Shown here in pieces: positions 23 to 6,697 of a DNA stretch of 6,697 bases; positions within the stretch are counted from its first letter, which is position 1, and the number at the start of each line of letters is the position of its first letter. Origin of the DNA: Bacteroidota bacterium. Its GTDB lineage: Bacteria > Bacteroidota > Bacteroidia > JACCXN01. The stretch is from positions 1-6,697 of the forward strand of contig JACCXN010000011.1 of the NCBI GenBank assembly GCA_013696965.1, in the 5' to 3' direction. The notes beneath the pieces were generated by a model, which saw only the letters and a list, made by a program, of their open reading frames with translations, did not search any database and had not been told where the DNA came from. The translations under genes and the position numbers were made by a program.

Positions 23-1141
23 TCAAATTGTTTCTCCTGTTGCTTGCTTTGTCATAAATTTCATTAATCCGGGAATTCCAGATAGACTTTTCATTAATAA
101 TTTATTAAAATTTTTGTTTTCTATAAAAAGGAGGTTTTGTAAAAATATTCCCTTTCTGATCCTGTGTAACAGATATCGGGAGATGTGTTTTCTATTATTA
201 TTCAACAACATTTCCCTGGTTTTGTTCATGCAGAAAAATTCAAGCACTTCCTTGTGCAAATCTTTTGCAGAACGAAAAGCCAGGCTCATTCCATTGCCTG
301 TTAAAGGAGGAATAAAACCAGCTGCATCACCAATCTGTAAATATTCTTTTTCAGTGGAATTGTTTATATCAAAATAAAGGTTCGCAGTTATTGTGTTTTT
401 TGAAAATTGTTTGTATTCAAGGCGTTTCTTTAAGTATGGGTTTTTCATTAAAACAGCATGCTCATAAGCTATAATGTCTCCTTTAAAGGGTTTGATGTCA
501 GAAGCTTTAGCAAGATAACACAGGCAATACTTGTTATCTTCTATTTTGGATATCCCACAATAACCGCCCCTGAAAGTGTGAATTTCAATGGTATCATCAA
601 CAGGCCCTTTATCTATGTGATATTTTACCCCTATATATTTTTCCTGCTGTATGTTCGGTATGTTATCCAATCCGGAAATTCTGCCATAGGCTCCCACTAC
701 AAGCTTTGCCTTTTCCTTTTTTTGCAGGTGTGTGGCCACTAAATACTCATCTTCCTGGTAAGCTATTTCTGTAACTTTGTGCCCTGTTAATAGCTTCACA
801 CCGTTTTCAACAGCAATTTCTGCCAGTAAATTATCCAGCTTATACCGGCTGAGGCCAAATCCCCCTTTATCTAATTTGCAAGTAGCTTTTGAACCATTAT
901 GTGAGGTTAACACAAAATTGTTTATCCGTGGTAAATCCATAGTTTCTAAGGGCACCCCCAGTTGCAAAAGGAAATCGAAGGATTCCATACTGATATATTC
1001 GCCACAAACTTTGTGTTTAGGATATTGACCTTTTTCTATCACCAGTACGGACAAACCACTTTTGGCAGACAAAATAGCAAAAGATAATCCCGCCACTCCT
1101 CCTCCGGTTATAATGATGTCCCATATTTTGTTGTTACTCAT
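23..1141 (-). CDS. FAD-dependent oxidoreductase, geranylgeranyl-reductase/aromatic-hydroxylase superfamily
   Basis: A 372-residue soluble flavoprotein, about the usual length for this superfamily. Visible motifs are the N-terminal dinucleotide fold GGGVAG (residues 13-18) with the ribose-binding acidic residue E36, a CGE motif at 46-48 typical of geranylgeranyl-reductase-like proteins, GAYGRIS at 150-156 in the place of the usual DG motif, and the second FAD motif GDAAGFIPPLTGNG at 271-284. The family either hydroxylates aromatic rings or hydrogenates isoprenoid chains. In this operon the substrate is inferred to be the polyketide ring or its prenyl tail. The segment RGGYCGIS (191-198) sits where reductases usually carry a Y-x-W-x-F-P substrate motif, and that motif is absent, so ring hydroxylation is at least as likely as chain reduction. 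The ATG overlaps the end of the methyltransferase gene by 8 nt, with AGGA 3 nt before it. It is the last operon gene seen. Family assignment is firm; the reaction is not. Confidence 0.88.
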   Translation of the reverse strand: MSNNKIWDIIITGGGVAGLSFAILSAKSGLSVLVIEKGQYPKHKVCGEYISMESFDFLLQLGVPLETMDLPRINNFVLTSHNGSKATCKLDKGGFGLSRYKLDNLLAEIAVENGVKLLTGHKVTEIAYQEDEYLVATHLQKKEKAKLVVGAYGRISGLDNIPNIQQEKYIGVKYHIDKGPVDDTIEIHTFRGGYCGISKIEDNKYCLCYLAKASDIKPFKGDIIAYEHAVLMKNPYLKKRLEYKQFSKNTITANLYFDINNSTEKEYLQIGDAAGFIPPLTGNGMSLAFRSAKDLHKEVLEFFCMNKTREMLLNNNRKHISRYLLHRIRKGIFLQNLLFIENKNFNKLLMKSLSGIPGLMKFMTKQATGETI

Positions 1142-1847
1142 TGTTCCTGATGCTTATTAAATACCGGAATGCCCACTTCCATTCCAGTGAATAGTTCTTT
1201 ATACCTGCATTTTTAAGTAAGGCTTCTAATTCATTTCGTTTGAATCCTCTTAACACAGACAAAGGCGCATCATTTTTGGTAAACCTTGATTTAGAAAATA
1301 ATTGGGTTGGGATTTTGATGCCGTAATAAGCTATTGGCGAACGGACCAAATCATTGATTACTCCACCGATAGTGGCGTTTGATTTAATATCTGCGAAAAA
1401 TCCTGTAATTTCATGATCTGTTAAATGATGGCAAAAAAGACTGGCAATGATTAAATCTGGCTTATTTCCTGCGGAAAACCAGTCACGGTAATCACAGGTT
1501 TCAAAGTTTACTTTTTCGCACAACCCGGGATGCGTTTTTTTAGCATATTCAGCAGCTTCAGGGAGCAAATCCACTCCCGTTAAACGAATAGGAAAAGGCA
1601 ATTTTTCTGCGTGGTCCAAAAGGTATTGAAGCATATCACCGGCACCAAAACCAATATCCACAATATGGACTTCCCTTGTTTCATTAGCCAGCATCTTCTT
1701 AATTGCAGAGAACACCAGGGAAGGCCCGCCTGTGAGTTTGTTGATCAATTCGAGTTCTTTTAAATTGATGAATAAATCTTCTTTGAGCTCATTGGGTAAA
1801 TCCATCAACTCGGATTCACCGGAGCGCCTGTTAAATCTATTCCCCAT
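1134..1847 (-). CDS. SAM-dependent methyltransferase (class I)
   Basis: A 237-residue Rossmann-fold methyltransferase. Motif I is VDIGFGAGD (residues 63-71), the ribose-binding acidic residue is D93 in GVDLLP, and the adenine-contact position is probably D119 in CDYRDW. SLFCHHLTD (136-144) fills the motif IV region, and GGVINDLVRSP (161-171) follows. The N-terminus has a SGESELMDLP stretch (9-18) ahead of a helical region ending in INKLTGG. There is no signal peptide or membrane span, so it is cytosolic. It lies 1 nt after the polyketide synthase stop codon and overlaps the FAD gene, so the likely substrate is the polyketide product, by O- or C-methylation. This differs from the membrane isoprenylcysteine-type methyltransferases that, as I recall, accompany many alkylpyrone and alkylresorcinol synthases. 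The start is supported by AAGGA 6 nt upstream. The fold is certain; acceptor and methylated atom are unknown. Confidence 0.88.
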   Translation of the reverse strand: MGNRFNRRSGESELMDLPNELKEDLFINLKELELINKLTGGPSLVFSAIKKMLANETREVHIVDIGFGAGDMLQYLLDHAEKLPFPIRLTGVDLLPEAAEYAKKTHPGLCEKVNFETCDYRDWFSAGNKPDLIIASLFCHHLTDHEITGFFADIKSNATIGGVINDLVRSPIAYYGIKIPTQLFSKSRFTKNDAPLSVLRGFKRNELEALLKNAGIKNYSLEWKWAFRYLISIRNNE

Positions 1848-1848
1848 T

Positions 1849-2943
1849 TTAATTCCTTGTTATTTTAAACAACCCACTTTCAACGGTAAGTCCCGGCCCA
1901 AAGGCTGCTGAATACAGCCATTCTCCCTGTTTGACTGAATCTGGTTTTTCGAGAAACTTTTGTAAAACAAATAGTATTGTAGCCGAAGACATGTTGCCAT
2001 AGTTTTGTAATATTTCATAGCTTTCAGCAAGTTTGTCCCGCGGCAAAATCAAAGCACGTTCAAAAGCTTTTAAAATGTTTTTACCTCCCGGATGAATGGC
2101 ATAGTAAGCAATGTCCTCCTTCAATAATCCGTTTCGGGATATAAAATCATTAAATGCTTTGGCAATATGATTTTCTATATGTCCCGGAACATCTCGGCTA
2201 AGTATCATTTCAAAACCATTGTTACCTATATTCCATCCCATATCATTTTTCCCTTCCGGTATAAGTAAGGAATCGAATGAATAGCAGGATAAATAACTTT
2301 CCGCAACAGGTGCATCATTCCTTACTATACAAGCTGCCGCTCCGTCAGAAAATAAATAAGTGGACAGAATATTGTCTTCGGATATGTCTTTTCTGAAATG
2401 TAGTGAACACAGCTCCACGCACACAAGAAGTACTTTAGCGGATGGTTCCGATTTACAAATCAAATCTGCTAAACGTAAGCCGTGAAACGCGGCATAACAA
2501 CCCATAAAATTGACGGTAAATCTTTTTACATTGTAATTCAATTCCAGTTTTTCCAGCAACAATGTTTCCAGGCCCGGAGCTGAAAACCCCGTGCAACTTA
2601 CCGTAATGATATGAGTAATATCCTGCTTTTGCAGGCCTGCTTTCGATATAGCCTCTTCTGAAACAGCGAAACCCAGTCGCGCAGATTCTTTCTCATAAAT
2701 CCTCATTCTCTCTGCTGTTCCCGGCTGCATATTTTCAGGCTTATACAACGCAGGGCTTTTACAGCCGGGTTGAAAATCCGGTATAACCGAATTTTTTACG
2801 CGGATTGAATCATCTTTTAGAAGAGCTTTATATTTTCTTATTACCATTTTGTCCTCGTATATTGAATCCAGGTAATCTTTCATTTGAAAATGATTCACAG
2901 GGAATTCACCACATAAAGCAGATATGGCTGTGATATTACTCAT
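1849..2943 (-). CDS. Type III polyketide synthase (chalcone/stilbene synthase family)
   Basis: A 364-residue homodimer-type ketosynthase, a normal length for bacterial type III synthases. The catalytic triad is complete: Cys149 in NFMGCYAAFHG, His284 in AIHPGG, and Asn317 in YGNMSSATI. Other family marks are SCTGFSAPG (116-124), FSDGAAA (198-204), GKNDMGWNIG (231-240) and the C-terminal AAFGPGLTVES (346-356), equivalent to the GFGPG loop of plant chalcone synthase. The family loads an acyl starter, in bacteria often a fatty acyl-CoA or ACP, extends it with malonyl-CoA and cyclises it to a resorcinol, phloroglucinol or pyrone. Starter length and ring type cannot be read from the sequence. The ATG overlaps the prenyltransferase stop as ATGA, so translation is probably coupled. 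Methyltransferase and flavoprotein genes follow directly, and I infer that they tailor its product. This is the core biosynthetic gene of the cluster. Confidence 0.95.
   Translation of the reverse strand: MSNITAISALCGEFPVNHFQMKDYLDSIYEDKMVIRKYKALLKDDSIRVKNSVIPDFQPGCKSPALYKPENMQPGTAERMRIYEKESARLGFAVSEEAISKAGLQKQDITHIITVSCTGFSAPGLETLLLEKLELNYNVKRFTVNFMGCYAAFHGLRLADLICKSEPSAKVLLVCVELCSLHFRKDISEDNILSTYLFSDGAAACIVRNDAPVAESYLSCYSFDSLLIPEGKNDMGWNIGNNGFEMILSRDVPGHIENHIAKAFNDFISRNGLLKEDIAYYAIHPGGKNILKAFERALILPRDKLAESYEILQNYGNMSSATILFVLQKFLEKPDSVKQGEWLYSAAFGPGLTVESGLFKITRN
1854..1858 (-). promoter_or_regulatory. Ribosome binding site of the methyltransferase gene
   Basis: AAGGA on the minus strand lies 6 nt before the methyltransferase ATG and inside the last codons of the polyketide synthase gene. 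It is the clearest Shine-Dalgarno sequence in the window and fixes the 1845-1847 start. Most other genes here lack one, as is common in Bacteroidota. Confidence 0.6.
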
Positions 2944-3869
2944 GGCAGTAAAAAGGATTTAAAAATGAGAAGAAGAAAAAAGACATTCACTGCAAAGGCT
3001 CCTGTTTTGTTCATGCCCATGGTATGCTCATAATCGGCATACTTTTCATTTGAAAAAGTTTTATTCATCCATCTTGTGAAATAGACAACAACCGGAAATA
3101 ATAAAAGAATAAACAAGATGGTATTAGCAATGCTGCCCTGAAATAAAAACAGTTGCAGGCTCATCAGAACACCCAAAAGCGCGAATAATATTGCCGAAAA
3201 AACAAAAGTACCCTTGATGCCAAGCAATAAACTCAGGGTTTTTACCCCATCTTTTTTATCTTGCCTGTGCTGGTATATCTGTGTTAAAGGGTAGCCTGCG
3301 CCAATTAATAAAAAACTTATCAGCAGGCTCATTATATATCCCTGTTTCCATACTAATTCGTTATTAACAGACAAAAAAACAATCATATAAATCACCGGCC
3401 CCTGGAACACGGCAACAGTTAAAAAACCAATGACCGGGTGTTTTTTCAGGCGGATACCGCGGTAACTGTAAGCTCTTGAGGCAAGAATATAGAATAAAAC
3501 AAGGGTAGCAATAACTGTATTCAAAAAAAAGTAAGTGATAACCAGAGCCAAAACATCCACAAAAAATGAAACCCAAAACATAATCCCGGGTACTTCGGGT
3601 GGCACTTTGAGGCCTCCTATGCTGGCTTTGTCATTATCCATATAGCTGTTGTAACCATTACTGGAAGGGTAAACGAGAAAGTGTAAAACAAGGAAGATTA
3701 TAAGGCCATTCACAACATTTATGCTTTCCGCCTGGCTTAACGCAAAAAGAAAAACCGGAAGCAGGAAGATGCTGAACGGAAACCGCAGGTGGCTAATAAT
3801 GTTTTTTAAGTCCTTGCTCATGGTATAAATGAAAAAAGCAAACCCGGCATCAATTGTTTTCGCCAACAC
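2940..3869 (-). CDS. UbiA-family membrane prenyltransferase
   Basis: An intramembrane prenyltransferase with about eight or nine hydrophobic helices. UbiA enzymes move a polyprenyl group from its diphosphate to an aromatic or other acceptor, with Mg2+ held by two Asp-rich motifs. The first is N74-SYM-D78-N-D80, an NxxxDxD spacing rather than the usual NxxxDxxxD. The second is the QDKKDGVKTL stretch (about 204-213), followed by SLLLG. I infer that the acceptor is the product of the adjacent polyketide synthase. The stated frame opens with GTG at 3867-3869 (309 aa). An ATG at 3819-3821 (codon 17) would give 293 aa starting MSKDLKN, just before the first helix, and is the likelier start. No Shine-Dalgarno is seen at either. 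Its end overlaps the synthase start by 4 nt. The gap behind the YceI gene is the only sizeable one in the operon. A quinone, heme or chlorophyll-type role is possible but fits the neighbours less well. Confidence 0.87.
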   Translation of the reverse strand: MLAKTIDAGFAFFIYTMSKDLKNIISHLRFPFSIFLLPVFLFALSQAESINVVNGLIIFLVLHFLVYPSSNGYNSYMDNDKASIGGLKVPPEVPGIMFWVSFFVDVLALVITYFFLNTVIATLVLFYILASRAYSYRGIRLKKHPVIGFLTVAVFQGPVIYMIVFLSVNNELVWKQGYIMSLLISFLLIGAGYPLTQIYQHRQDKKDGVKTLSLLLGIKGTFVFSAILFALLGVLMSLQLFLFQGSIANTILFILLLFPVVVYFTRWMNKTFSNEKYADYEHTMGMNKTGAFAVNVFFLLLIFKSFLLP

Positions 3870-3899
3870 CGGGTCATTTAAATCAAAACAAATTTAAGC

Positions 3900-4442
3900 T
3901 TATTTTATAATTTTCAAATCAATATCTACTTCATCTGCCAGCATCCAGCTTTTGCCACCTACGCCATAATCTCTCCTGTTCAGCTTCAGGCTGGACGAAT
4001 AAATTGTTTTACCGCCTGATTCTGCTATGACTACTTCCAAAACTATTTTTTTGGTGGTGTTTTTGATTGTCAGGTTCCCGCTTACACGAAGTTTGCTAGA
4101 ACTAACGCCTTCAACGTCAGTAGAAATAAATTTAATAACCGGATATTTCACTGCATCAAAATATTCCTCTTTTTGCAGATCATTATCTCTCATTTTGATA
4201 CCGGTATTGATGGATGATACTTTTATAATTCCGTTGAATTTACTTTTTCCGGGGTTATTTTTATCATAATGGATATCCGCTACAAAAGATTCAAAAAGCC
4301 CTTCAACTGTAATTCCGGCATTTTTTATTTTGAATTTTATATAAGAACTATCATCCTCCTGATTGGATAATGTAAAGCCAAGCAGGGCAGGGATCAGCAA
4401 AATGACAACAAGCAGCCCAATTGCGTTTAATTTATTATTCAT
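3900..4442 (-). CDS. YceI-family periplasmic lipid-binding protein
   Basis: A 180-residue exported protein of the YceI family, an eight-stranded lipocalin-like barrel; characterised members bind polyisoprenoid chains or quinone-like lipids. Residues 1 to about 25 form a signal peptide with a long hydrophobic core. Family hallmarks are SSINTGIKMRDNDLQ (76-90) leading into EEYFDAVKYPVIKF (92-105), then LTIKNTTKKI (124-133), and a C-terminal LNRRDYGVGG (154-163) with WMLADEVDIDL (166-176). It is probably periplasmic. The hydrophobic start lacks a clear lipobox, so I do not call it a lipoprotein. Its ATG overlaps the upstream barrel-protein gene by 8 nt, and the prenyltransferase follows. The placement suggests that it carries or shields a prenylated product of the operon. 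That role is inference from family and neighbours; YceI proteins are also common as stand-alone stress or acid-response genes. Confidence 0.92.
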   Translation of the reverse strand: MNNKLNAIGLLVVILLIPALLGFTLSNQEDDSSYIKFKIKNAGITVEGLFESFVADIHYDKNNPGKSKFNGIIKVSSINTGIKMRDNDLQKEEYFDAVKYPVIKFISTDVEGVSSSKLRVSGNLTIKNTTKKIVLEVVIAESGGKTIYSSSLKLNRRDYGVGGKSWMLADEVDIDLKIIK

Positions 4443-5142
4443 TCCCGGTAAAAGGATTAAATGAAATGCCTAGGAAAAACATTATAGCCTTATACCTGAA
4501 CCTGTCGTTGTTATTGGTAAGCTTTACACTGGTTGTGTATTCTGAGAAAGTCATATCCATTCCGCCTCTTAACCATAGCTTTTCTGATATTGCATAAGCA
4601 ATAAAAAACTCTGATTTAAGGTATCCAATGTCATTATCACCAACAAGCAATAAATTGAATGGTGTTGGCCTTGCAGATGGGTTAACAGGAAAATTTCCAG
4701 TATTTTCAGAAGAAATGAATGTGGTGGAGCTTTCCGAACCAAAACCAAGACCTATTGCGTCAATATTAAACCCGGCTTTTAATTTGGGTGTAAACAGGTA
4801 TTCGATATGTATGGAAGCACTCAATCCCATTGCAAGCGGGGAATTTACAATAAGCGTATCAATGGTTGATTCATCGGATGCAAGTTTGGCAGGGGCTGTA
4901 GTATAGGTTAAATTGGAGCCACTAAATCCGGAAAATCGCAGGCCATAACCCAATCGTATTTTTTTTCCATTGAATAGTCCATGAGTTCTATTCCAGGAAA
5001 GCGCGCCAGAATAAATTCCATCGCCTGCGCCAATGGCCAGGCCAAAAGCCTGTGTGGTTTTTGGAATCTCGTTTTCCTGAGCTTTTAACGAAATTGCACC
5101 AATGCAAAGGAGAGTGATTAATGTGTATTTTATTTTTTTCAT
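4435..5142 (-). CDS. Secreted protein, probable outer-membrane beta-barrel, function unknown
   Basis: A 235-residue protein not assigned to a named family. A signal peptide runs over residues 1 to about 22, with hydrophobic TLITLLCIGAISL and probable cleavage after KAQ. The mature part alternates short glycine- and aromatic-rich strands (AFGLAIGAGDGIYSG 32-46, IRLGYGLRFSGFSG 62-75, LKAGFNIDAIGLGFG 121-135, LRGGMDMTFSEY 191-202) with polar serine/threonine loops. It ends in an amphipathic strand, FFLGISFNPF (222-231). This pattern fits a small porin-like barrel of eight to ten strands. As first gene of the operon, immediately before the YceI gene and overlapping it by 8 nt, it may be the outer-membrane end of a lipid transport or storage route. 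The ATG at 5140-5142 gives a proper signal peptide; no Shine-Dalgarno is visible. Export is well supported, the barrel fold moderately, the function not at all. Confidence 0.8.
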   Translation of the reverse strand: MKKIKYTLITLLCIGAISLKAQENEIPKTTQAFGLAIGAGDGIYSGALSWNRTHGLFNGKKIRLGYGLRFSGFSGSNLTYTTAPAKLASDESTIDTLIVNSPLAMGLSASIHIEYLFTPKLKAGFNIDAIGLGFGSESSTTFISSENTGNFPVNPSARPTPFNLLLVGDNDIGYLKSEFFIAYAISEKLWLRGGMDMTFSEYTTSVKLTNNNDRFRYKAIMFFLGISFNPFTGNE

Positions 5143-5394: not shown

Positions 5395-5427
5395 CAAATA
5401 TAGATAATGTTTTTACTCCTTTTCAAA
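5395..5427 (-). promoter_or_regulatory. Predicted Bacteroidota-type promoter of the six-gene operon
   Basis: On the minus strand TTTG (5424-5427) is followed after 21 nt by TATATTTG (5395-5402), an exact match to the TAnnTTTG -7 consensus of the phylum, with spacing in the accepted range. It points at the operon and would give a leader of roughly 245 nt containing both palindromes. The length of that leader is the main reason for doubt. Confidence 0.5.
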
Positions 5428-5676: not shown

Positions 5677-5788
5677 AGTAATTAACAGTTAAACCATTTT
5701 GTTATGAAATAGCCATAAGCAGAAATCGGAGCTTACCAACCGAAAATGAATATGGCGTATTCCATCAGACCTTTAAAATTATATACTG

Positions 5789-6391
5789 ATGAAAAATTTA
5801 AAAACCCTGCTGCATTCAGTTTTTCTTATTTTCTTTCTGGTTCCAGGTTTTGCAAATGCACAAAACAGTGAAGCCCTTGCAAGATTCATTGTTTCAGAAA
5901 GTGAAAATTCATTCCTTATTTCCTGGACTATAAAAGCAGGGTTTAGTTGCTCGGATGTGGTGGTGGAACATTCTTCGGATGGCATAAACTATAATCCTGT
6001 TTACAGGTATCCGGGGATTTGTGGAGTTATTGGAAGTGACGAAACTTACAGCTTTATTCATAAAGTTCCGAAGAACGGAGCTAATTATTATAAAATGGAC
6101 CTGGGATATTCAGGAAATTCTGAACCCTTGTCTGTCAATTTTGTGGATACAAGAAAAGATGGTTTTGTAATTTATCCAATGCCAATCCAGGACCATTCAA
6201 CAATTGCCTTCACTTCCGGATCCTATGCTTTTTCTCTGATGATAATCAACCATTCGGGGAAAGTTGTTTATAGGGAAGATAATATCAGGGGCTCAGAATT
6301 TCCTTTAGGTAAACTTGGCCTGGAAAAGGGGATTTATCACTTTACCCTTGCAAACGGCAATGTTTCCTATTCAGGCACTTTTATTAGGTAA
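5789..6391 (+). CDS. Small secreted protein with type IX (Por) C-terminal sorting domain
   Basis: A 200-residue exported protein in three parts. Residues 1 to about 25 are a signal peptide (hydrophobic VFLIFFLVPGFANA, cleavage near ANAQ). Residues about 28-118 form one beta-sandwich module with the pattern SWTIKAG...VVVEHSSDG...YSFIHKVPKNGANYYKMDL, seen ahead of sorting domains in many Bacteroidota surface proteins. Residues about 127-200 are a type A sorting domain: VIYPMPIQDHSTI, IINHSGKVVY, LGLEKGIYHFTL and the terminal GTFIR. Such proteins cross the outer membrane by the type IX system, and the domain is usually removed. With no catalytic module between signal and sorting parts, the cargo is only the single sandwich, so function is unknown; adhesion or surface structure is possible. 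The ATG at 5789-5791 is chosen because it opens directly into the signal peptide. It is divergent from the biosynthetic operon, so a shared role is not implied. Confidence 0.85.
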   Translation: MKNLKTLLHSVFLIFFLVPGFANAQNSEALARFIVSESENSFLISWTIKAGFSCSDVVVEHSSDGINYNPVYRYPGICGVIGSDETYSFIHKVPKNGANYYKMDLGYSGNSEPLSVNFVDTRKDGFVIYPMPIQDHSTIAFTSGSYAFSLMIINHSGKVVYREDNIRGSEFPLGKLGLEKGIYHFTLANGNVSYSGTFIR

Positions 6392-6536: not shown

Positions 6537-6697
6537 TTAACAAATAATTAATTTGTAAGGAGCCGGTGGGCTGGCAATCATCCTTTCCATTAAATTGTCA
6601 AAAACACCTGCTTTCATATTATTCCTATTGAATCTGTATGTATACTCATCGATATATGCTTGTAAATGATTGGCATGATGATGCATTCCTCTGAGCC
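6537..6697 (-). CDS. IS1595-family (ISXO2-like) transposase, C-terminal part only
   Basis: The last 52 codons of a minus-strand gene whose start lies beyond the right edge; the stop is at 6537-6539. The fragment runs LRGMHHHANHLQAYIDEYTY followed by RFNRNN and FDNLMERMI. This is the conserved C-terminal block of IS1595-family DDE transposases, which reads G-x-H-H-x(5)-LQ-x-Y-x-DE-x-x-x-RFNRR, then FD-x-L. The catalytic residues lie outside the window, so I cannot tell whether the gene is intact. It shows no frameshift or internal stop. Cut-and-paste movement of its insertion sequence is the expected role. Confidence 0.85.
   Translation of the reverse strand, partial: LRGMHHHANHLQAYIDEYTYRFNRNNMKAGVFDNLMERMIASPPAPYKLIIC

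Follow-up and report, generated by a model that had tools for sequence, protein, structure and literature searches.

A type III polyketide synthase–UbiA gene cassette beside an outer-membrane barrel–YceI gene pair in Bacteroidota: a candidate pathway for a prenylated phenolic lipid

Contig JACCXN010000011.1 (C11; 6,697 bp) of a Bacteroidota bacterium was analyzed in its entirety and is referred to below as the window. Its positions 23-5142 carry six genes, all on the minus strand, for a predicted outer-membrane barrel protein, a YceI protein, a UbiA-family protein, a type III polyketide synthase (PKS), a methyltransferase (MT), and a flavin adenine dinucleotide (FAD) enzyme. We favor, with moderate confidence, the interpretation that this locus is a Bacteroidota phenolic-lipid pathway in which a four-gene biosynthetic unit lies beside a two-gene envelope unit and whose prenylated product would be carried in the envelope. 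By analogy with characterized operons, the probable product of the six genes is an oily phenol or quinone; to judge from the UbiA sequence, it perhaps bears an isoprenoid tail. The collinear arrangement described in a first-pass annotation agreed with the open reading frame list, as four of the five junctions either overlap (barrel/YceI, 8 nt; UbiA/PKS, 4 nt; MT/FAD, 8 nt) or are 1 nt apart (PKS/MT). YceI and UbiA are separated by 30 nt, or by 78 nt counted from the UbiA ATG at 3821, which is favored by homologues over the GTG at 3869 from which the gene was called. The family names given there to YceI, UbiA, the synthase, the methyltransferase, and the FAD oxidoreductase likewise agreed with our profile matches. 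The genes are as follows:

4435..5142, minus strand: barrel gene; 235 aa, signal peptide, no Pfam match, AlphaFold2 model
3900..4442, minus strand: YceI gene; 180 aa, N-terminal signal or anchor, PF04264
2940..3869, minus strand: UbiA gene; GTG start, likely start ATG 3821, PF01040
1849..2943, minus strand: type III PKS gene; PF00195/PF02797, triad Cys149-His284-Asn317
1134..1847, minus strand: MT gene; S-adenosylmethionine (SAM)-dependent, Methyltransf_25
23..1141, minus strand: FAD gene; FAD_binding_3, PHBH-fold oxidoreductase model, probable ring hydroxylase

The UbiA-PKS-MT-FAD core recurs across Bacteroidota. Our samples comprised 198 relatives, 395 genomes of the phylum, and 100 synthase loci from a scan of both, and neighbors were counted at the 78 loci that have 4 kb or more on each side of the synthase, UbiA and YceI being scored within 6 kb. 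Near the PKS gene, MT was found at 66 of these loci, FAD at 63, UbiA at 47, and YceI at 19; all four enzyme genes occurred together at 41, on the same strand at 23. Chitinophagaceae and Dyadobacter share the collinear UbiA-PKS-MT-FAD order of the window, while Cyclobacteriaceae have a divergent UbiA with PKS-MT together and FAD apart, Mucilaginibacter has YceI-PKS-FAD-MT plus a divergent UbiA, and Pontibacter has FAD-PKS-MT with UbiA not local. The first-pass annotation had named homologous synthases without UbiA and YceI neighbors as evidence against its proposal, and such loci were seen in part; where UbiA is not local, it is often found elsewhere in the genome. Close relatives of the synthase with 39–43% identity were also detected in Legionellaceae and other Gammaproteobacteria (L092, L115, L123, L129, and L158), three of which (L092, L115, and L129) have the synthase alongside MT and FAD genes with no UbiA adjacent.

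The UbiA subfamily (signature YNS[YF]xDxDxx[SP]IGG) co-occurs almost perfectly with the PKS. It was present in all 36 relatives with a strong match to the PKS clade and in 5 of the 162 others, and the matches in these five synthase-less relatives were all divergent, weak, or fragmentary (Fisher p ~2e-34, a guide value only, with phylogeny ignored). Both states are held within 11 families, in all of which strong UbiA matches track the synthase; synthase-less members of families f66 and f88 gave divergent or weak UbiA matches. In the phylum sample, the PKS was present in every one of the 60 UbiA-positive genomes, compared with 179/395 overall, a figure that also makes type III PKS clusters very common in Bacteroidota genomes. 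These counts bear out the assignment of UbiA to the synthase pathway, and the comparative data give good support to the core of the first-pass interpretation. UbiA and PKS are on separate contigs or distant from each other in 6 of the 26 strong phylum-sample cases, and in the f25 group, whose PKS-MT-FAD genes resemble Balneolales loci, an unlinked UbiA carries the same signature (YNSYWDKDEGPIGG). That the subfamily accompanies the PKS clade even when unlinked leads to a sharp, testable prediction, namely, a prenyl or similar group on the product. In the f25 genomes (L210–L213), the unlinked UbiA gene keeps constant neighbors, a conserved gene of ~300 aa and a thioredoxin-like gene.

The window UbiA belongs to the UbiA superfamily (PF01040, 59.2 bits against a curated cut-off of 34.2, E=5e-16) and, judged by its sequence, is likely a prenyltransferase. 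Its residues N74, D78, D80, Q200, and D204 are invariant in 59/59 subfamily sequences. The canonical motifs NxxxDxxxD and DxxxD are altered, the former reading NxxxDxD, without an Asp at +8, and the latter QxxxD. Since two canonical Asp ligands are missing, ordinary diphosphate chemistry is not assured. The isoprenoid part that the first-pass annotation had given to the product is accordingly an extrapolation. The remaining UbiA-type genes of the genome encode a heme O synthase, an MqnP-like protein, a DGGGP-synthase-like protein, and one unclassified protein. We rejected the identification of the window UbiA with MenA, MqnP, or heme O synthase, for which the genome has separate genes. Identification with EboC was also rejected: the ebo operon (EboC/Ubi-297) is likewise a Bacteroidota operon with a UbiA-like protein, but the window UbiA gave no match to the EboC model, and the gene set is different, ebo being without a type III PKS.

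The remaining three enzymes are contiguous (23-2943), as in operons of the srs, pkq, and hid type, which combine a PKS, a SAM methyltransferase, and an FAD monooxygenase. The PKS matched both chalcone/stilbene synthase domains (Chal_sti_synt N, PF00195, E=3e-25; C, PF02797, E=1e-26), and its catalytic triad, Cys149-His284-Asn317, is intact and invariant in an alignment of 12 relatives. Its closest solved structures were Steely1, Ectocarpus PKS III, and PKS18. Tyr281 lies three residues ahead of the catalytic His; the equivalent of ArsB Trp281, which bears on resorcinol versus pyrone formation, was not mappable. The MT matched Methyltransf_25 (E=1.1e-10) and resembled PRK06202 (139.8 bits, below the cut-off of 243). 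The FAD enzyme matched FAD_binding_3 (E=5e-12), and its structure model (mean predicted local distance difference test [pLDDT] score, 84.8) has a PHBH fold. In Foldseek searches with this model, flavin halogenases ranked at the top, and 4bk1, the geranylgeranyl reductase-like 3oz2, and PHBH were also found. The enzyme was rejected as a flavin halogenase, despite these top matches, because it has no WxWxIP motif and a single Trp (W7), and as a geranylgeranyl reductase because it scored 108.6 bits with TIGR02032 against a cut-off of 158.8. The best overall fit was to 3-hydroxybenzoate 6-hydroxylase 4bk1, a phenol para-hydroxylase (TM 0.80/0.77), and this modeled similarity fits a resorcinol-to-hydroquinone conversion.

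The barrel and YceI genes recur as a pair beside this cassette, which supports that part of the first-pass interpretation. The AlphaFold2 model of the barrel protein (15 relatives; mean pLDDT, 89.2) shows a closed 8-stranded outer-membrane barrel, which, with the signal peptide, places it in the OmpA/OmpW size class. By VIA-align, its Z scores were 13.0 with OmpA (1qjp), 12.9 with OprF, and 11.0 with OmpW (2f1t); these fold searches indicated the size class only and no function. The protein matched nothing in Pfam, and its sequence, with the family motifs TAPAKLT, GFNIDAIG, GDNDIG, and NDRFR, defines a new family. The YceI protein has the family domain (PF04264, E=1.2e-30) and a hydrophobic N-terminus (MNNKLNAIGLLVVILLIPALLGF) as its signal. 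Seven YceI genes are present in this genome; the window copy falls into a clade (97, starred) with YceI proteins whose genes are linked to a barrel or a synthase gene in other genomes, whereas its six paralogues fall outside it. PKS-adjacent YceI proteins of barrel-less loci (Mucilaginibacter, Ferruginibacter, and L102) lie within this same clade. At nine or more other loci, a YceI gene directly follows the barrel gene or lies within ~1.2 kb of it, and six lineages show linkage of the pair to the four-gene unit: in varying order in the window, G425 (L065), G478 (L196), G491 (L195), and G430 (L197), and in G438 (L068/L199) across two contig ends. A barrel gene was found in 15/36 synthase-positive versus 7/162 synthase-negative relatives (p ~3e-8, phylogeny ignored). 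The tunnels of solved YceI structures contain octaprenylphenol, octaprenylphosphate, or ubiquinone-8, and YceI proteins work in peroxyl-radical detoxification (PMC9113575). The dedicated export that the first-pass annotation read into this pair claims too much, since an 8-stranded barrel of OmpA/OmpW size with a YceI lipocalin would be equally compatible with carriage, storage, uptake, or protection. The pair nevertheless offers a handle on the transit of isoprenoid phenols or quinones between the inner and outer membranes of Gram-negative bacteria.

The single six-gene operon initially proposed found no support in this form. We searched the window for a Bacteroidota-type promoter-like pattern (TTTG-N17-25-TAnnTTTG) and found three sites against 0.95 expected (at least three in 18/200 shuffles), all of them upstream of genes, namely, UbiA, the barrel, and a gene for a secreted protein described below. 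The two promoter-like sites that belong to the locus are as follows:

3889..3918, minus strand: TTTG-N18-TAAATTTG, between YceI and UbiA; the four-gene unit may start here
5395..5427, minus strand: upstream of the barrel gene, consensus match only; the barrel–YceI unit may start here

Since upstream regions of UbiA, PKS, MT, and FAD in homologues showed no sense-strand excess of the consensus, the sites in the window are suggestive only. Together with the separability of the two modules, the barrel–YceI pair being present without the synthase in some genomes, they favor reading the locus as a four-gene biosynthetic unit and an adjacent two-gene envelope unit, the two separated by a candidate promoter.

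In the pathway that we infer, including its substrates, step order, isoprenoid part, lipid carriage, and physiological role, the PKS would extend an acyl-CoA or acyl-ACP starter by malonyl units and cyclize it to an alkylresorcinol-type phenol, the MT would C- or O-methylate the ring, and the FAD enzyme would hydroxylate it to a hydroquinone that could be oxidized to a quinone. The membrane UbiA enzyme would attach an isoprenyl group, after which the dedicated YceI may keep the product within the periplasm, with the small barrel receiving it or passing it on at the outer membrane. The site of action would then probably be the envelope, where the compound could serve as an antioxidant, a redox lipid, or a membrane-modifying lipid. 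We tentatively raise a bolder, and doubtful, version: an unrecognized class of isoprenoid-tailed polyketide (hydro)quinones, made with a UbiA that has a changed metal site, carried by the dedicated YceI and barrel, and serving as an outer-membrane antioxidant or electron carrier. Several observations weigh against the prenylated, envelope-carried product. UbiA motif I is without its second Asp, and Gln200 stands in place of the first Asp of motif II in all 59 subfamily sequences. The PKS shares ~40% identity with its relatives, and none of the solved enzymes is close to it. Many PKS loci are without a local UbiA or YceI, and Legionella and Balneolales-type loci consist of PKS-MT-FAD with no adjacent UbiA. 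The barrel was undetected in 21/36 PKS-positive relatives; moreover, G456 and G563 have the barrel–YceI pair without this PKS, indicating that the pair is not strictly dedicated.

These observations leave room for other explanations. It is rather unlikely, in our estimation, that the product is a methylated alkyl(hydro)quinone of the pkq/hid/srs type and that the UbiA homologue performs another membrane step, such as use of another diphosphate donor, transport, or scaffolding. Replacement of the canonical D76 and D198 equivalents across the subfamily would suit such a role, and known three-gene systems give unprenylated phenolic lipids (PMC10896814, PMC9927152); however, UbiA scores above the Pfam cut-off, the invariant N74, D78, D80, and D204 argue for a kept metal/diphosphate site, and YceI partners typically bind isoprenoids (PMC9113575). 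We regard as possible, but doubtful, the idea that barrel–YceI is an independent envelope module that does not handle the product, functioning instead in BcnA-like lipid-peroxide or redox defense or in OmpW/AlkL-like hydrophobic uptake. The synthase-free pairs in G456 and G563, the promoter-like site separating the units, the OmpW/OmpA size of the 8-stranded barrel, and the YceI role in peroxyl-radical detoxification (PMC9113575) are all consistent with this idea, whereas the linkage of pair and cassette in six lineages with differing orders, the enrichment of the barrel in synthase-positive relatives, and the placement of barrel-less, PKS-adjacent YceI proteins in the same clade argue against it. 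That the product is a respiratory (polyketide) quinone replacing or supplementing menaquinone, and not an exported or outer-membrane lipid, seems improbable: pkqABC, with the same three enzymes, gives alternative electron carriers (PMC9927152), and YceI homologues bind ubiquinone (PMC9113575), but a separate MqnP-like UbiA for menaquinone is present in the genome, and association with an outer-membrane barrel would be unexpected for an inner-membrane carrier.

Among known systems, the agq cluster of Actinoplanes missouriensis comes nearest to the prenylated-lipid pathway that we favor. To judge from the title of a 2011 paper by Awakawa, it is said to make alkyl-O-dihydrogeranyl-methoxyhydroquinones, and it reportedly contains PKS, methyltransferase, flavoprotein, and prenyltransferase genes. 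The window likewise has a UbiA-type gene clustered with PKS, MT, and FAD genes, a likeness at the level of gene content; agq differs in being actinobacterial, and we know of no YceI or barrel gene in it. By the same title, agq already combines type III PKS chemistry with prenylation and is a closer precedent than srsABC, which the first-pass annotation had cited.

Operons of type III PKS, MT, and FAD genes make alkylresorcinols or quinones (PMC10896814, PMC9927152, PMC8086630). Like the window, srsABC (Streptomyces griseus) and pkqABC (mycobacteria and Streptomyces) have genes for a type III PKS, a methyltransferase, and an FAD hydroxylase in one contiguous run (PMC9927152), but they are without prenyltransferase, YceI, and barrel, and their products are alkylresorcinols, alkylquinones, or polyketide quinones. 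The cyanobacterial hidABC and Planctomycetota type III PKS operons share the MT-FAD-PKS trio, phylum-wide (PMC10896814, PMC8086630); they differ in gene order, no barrel has been reported in them, and a prenyltransferase is exceptional there, having been noted as unique in one cyanobacterial hid-like cluster (PMC8086630), whereas it is near-obligate in the Bacteroidota clade. In 'Saltatorellus ferox', genes for a lipoprotein and a lipid/isoprenoid-binding protein precede the PKS (PMC10896814), an arrangement that, by analogy, gives an independent hint of a link between PKS and carrier. BcnA/LcoA of Burkholderia resemble the window YceI as YceI-family periplasmic proteins whose homologues have isoprenoid-type ligands (PMC9113575), but their partner is a cytochrome b561, with neither barrel nor PKS cluster. 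PKS-MT-FAD (srs, pkq, and hid) and PKS-MT-FAD-prenyltransferase (agq) systems are known already. Our search of one literature library for the product of a Bacteroidota type III PKS/UbiA/YceI system found none named.

The genome also contains a second, decayed PKS-MT-FAD plus UbiA set on contig C57 (L009; 2869-5301 and 12182-11351). The PKS there has 193 aa and lacks residues equivalent to ~124-294, so that the catalytic Cys and His are absent; the MT is intact, the FAD gene is frameshifted, and UbiA, ~6 kb further, is also frameshifted. In the MT tree, the C57 protein falls into a Cytophagales/Sphingobacteriales clade (99, starred), while the window MT is placed elsewhere, with Saprospirales/Cryomorphaceae-type copies (81, unstarred). 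The G+C content of the window cluster is 0.35-0.39, against 0.31-0.36 in most other sampled pieces. The simplest reading is that an old cluster was replaced by one from another lineage.

The window ends 22 bp past the FAD stop codon, so the downstream side of the cluster is not readable, and an Rfam search of the window gave no match. At its other end, positions 6575-6697 (minus strand) encode the C terminus of an IS1595/ISXO2-like transposase (E=0.0018, under the Pfam cut-off), and contig C54 opens with the same 114 bp with which the window closes, indicating that the contig breaks inside a repeated mobile element. Upstream of the barrel gene, positions 5789-6391 (plus strand) encode a secreted protein with a type IX secretion system (T9SS) type A sorting tail slightly under curated cut-offs; the 3' part of this gene has 74% DNA identity to C66:1489-1752, where no long open reading frame was called. 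A dispersed repeat of ~100 nt, tandem at some sites, lies at 5702-5795 (plus strand), with further copies on C29, C22, C91, C94, C59, C3, C49 (two), and C86 (L232-L240). It carries a 17-codon reading frame (MHEPFTNSNEYNMAYSI and variants), and several copies immediately precede unrelated genes, the repeat-terminal ATGAAA providing the start codon of the gene.

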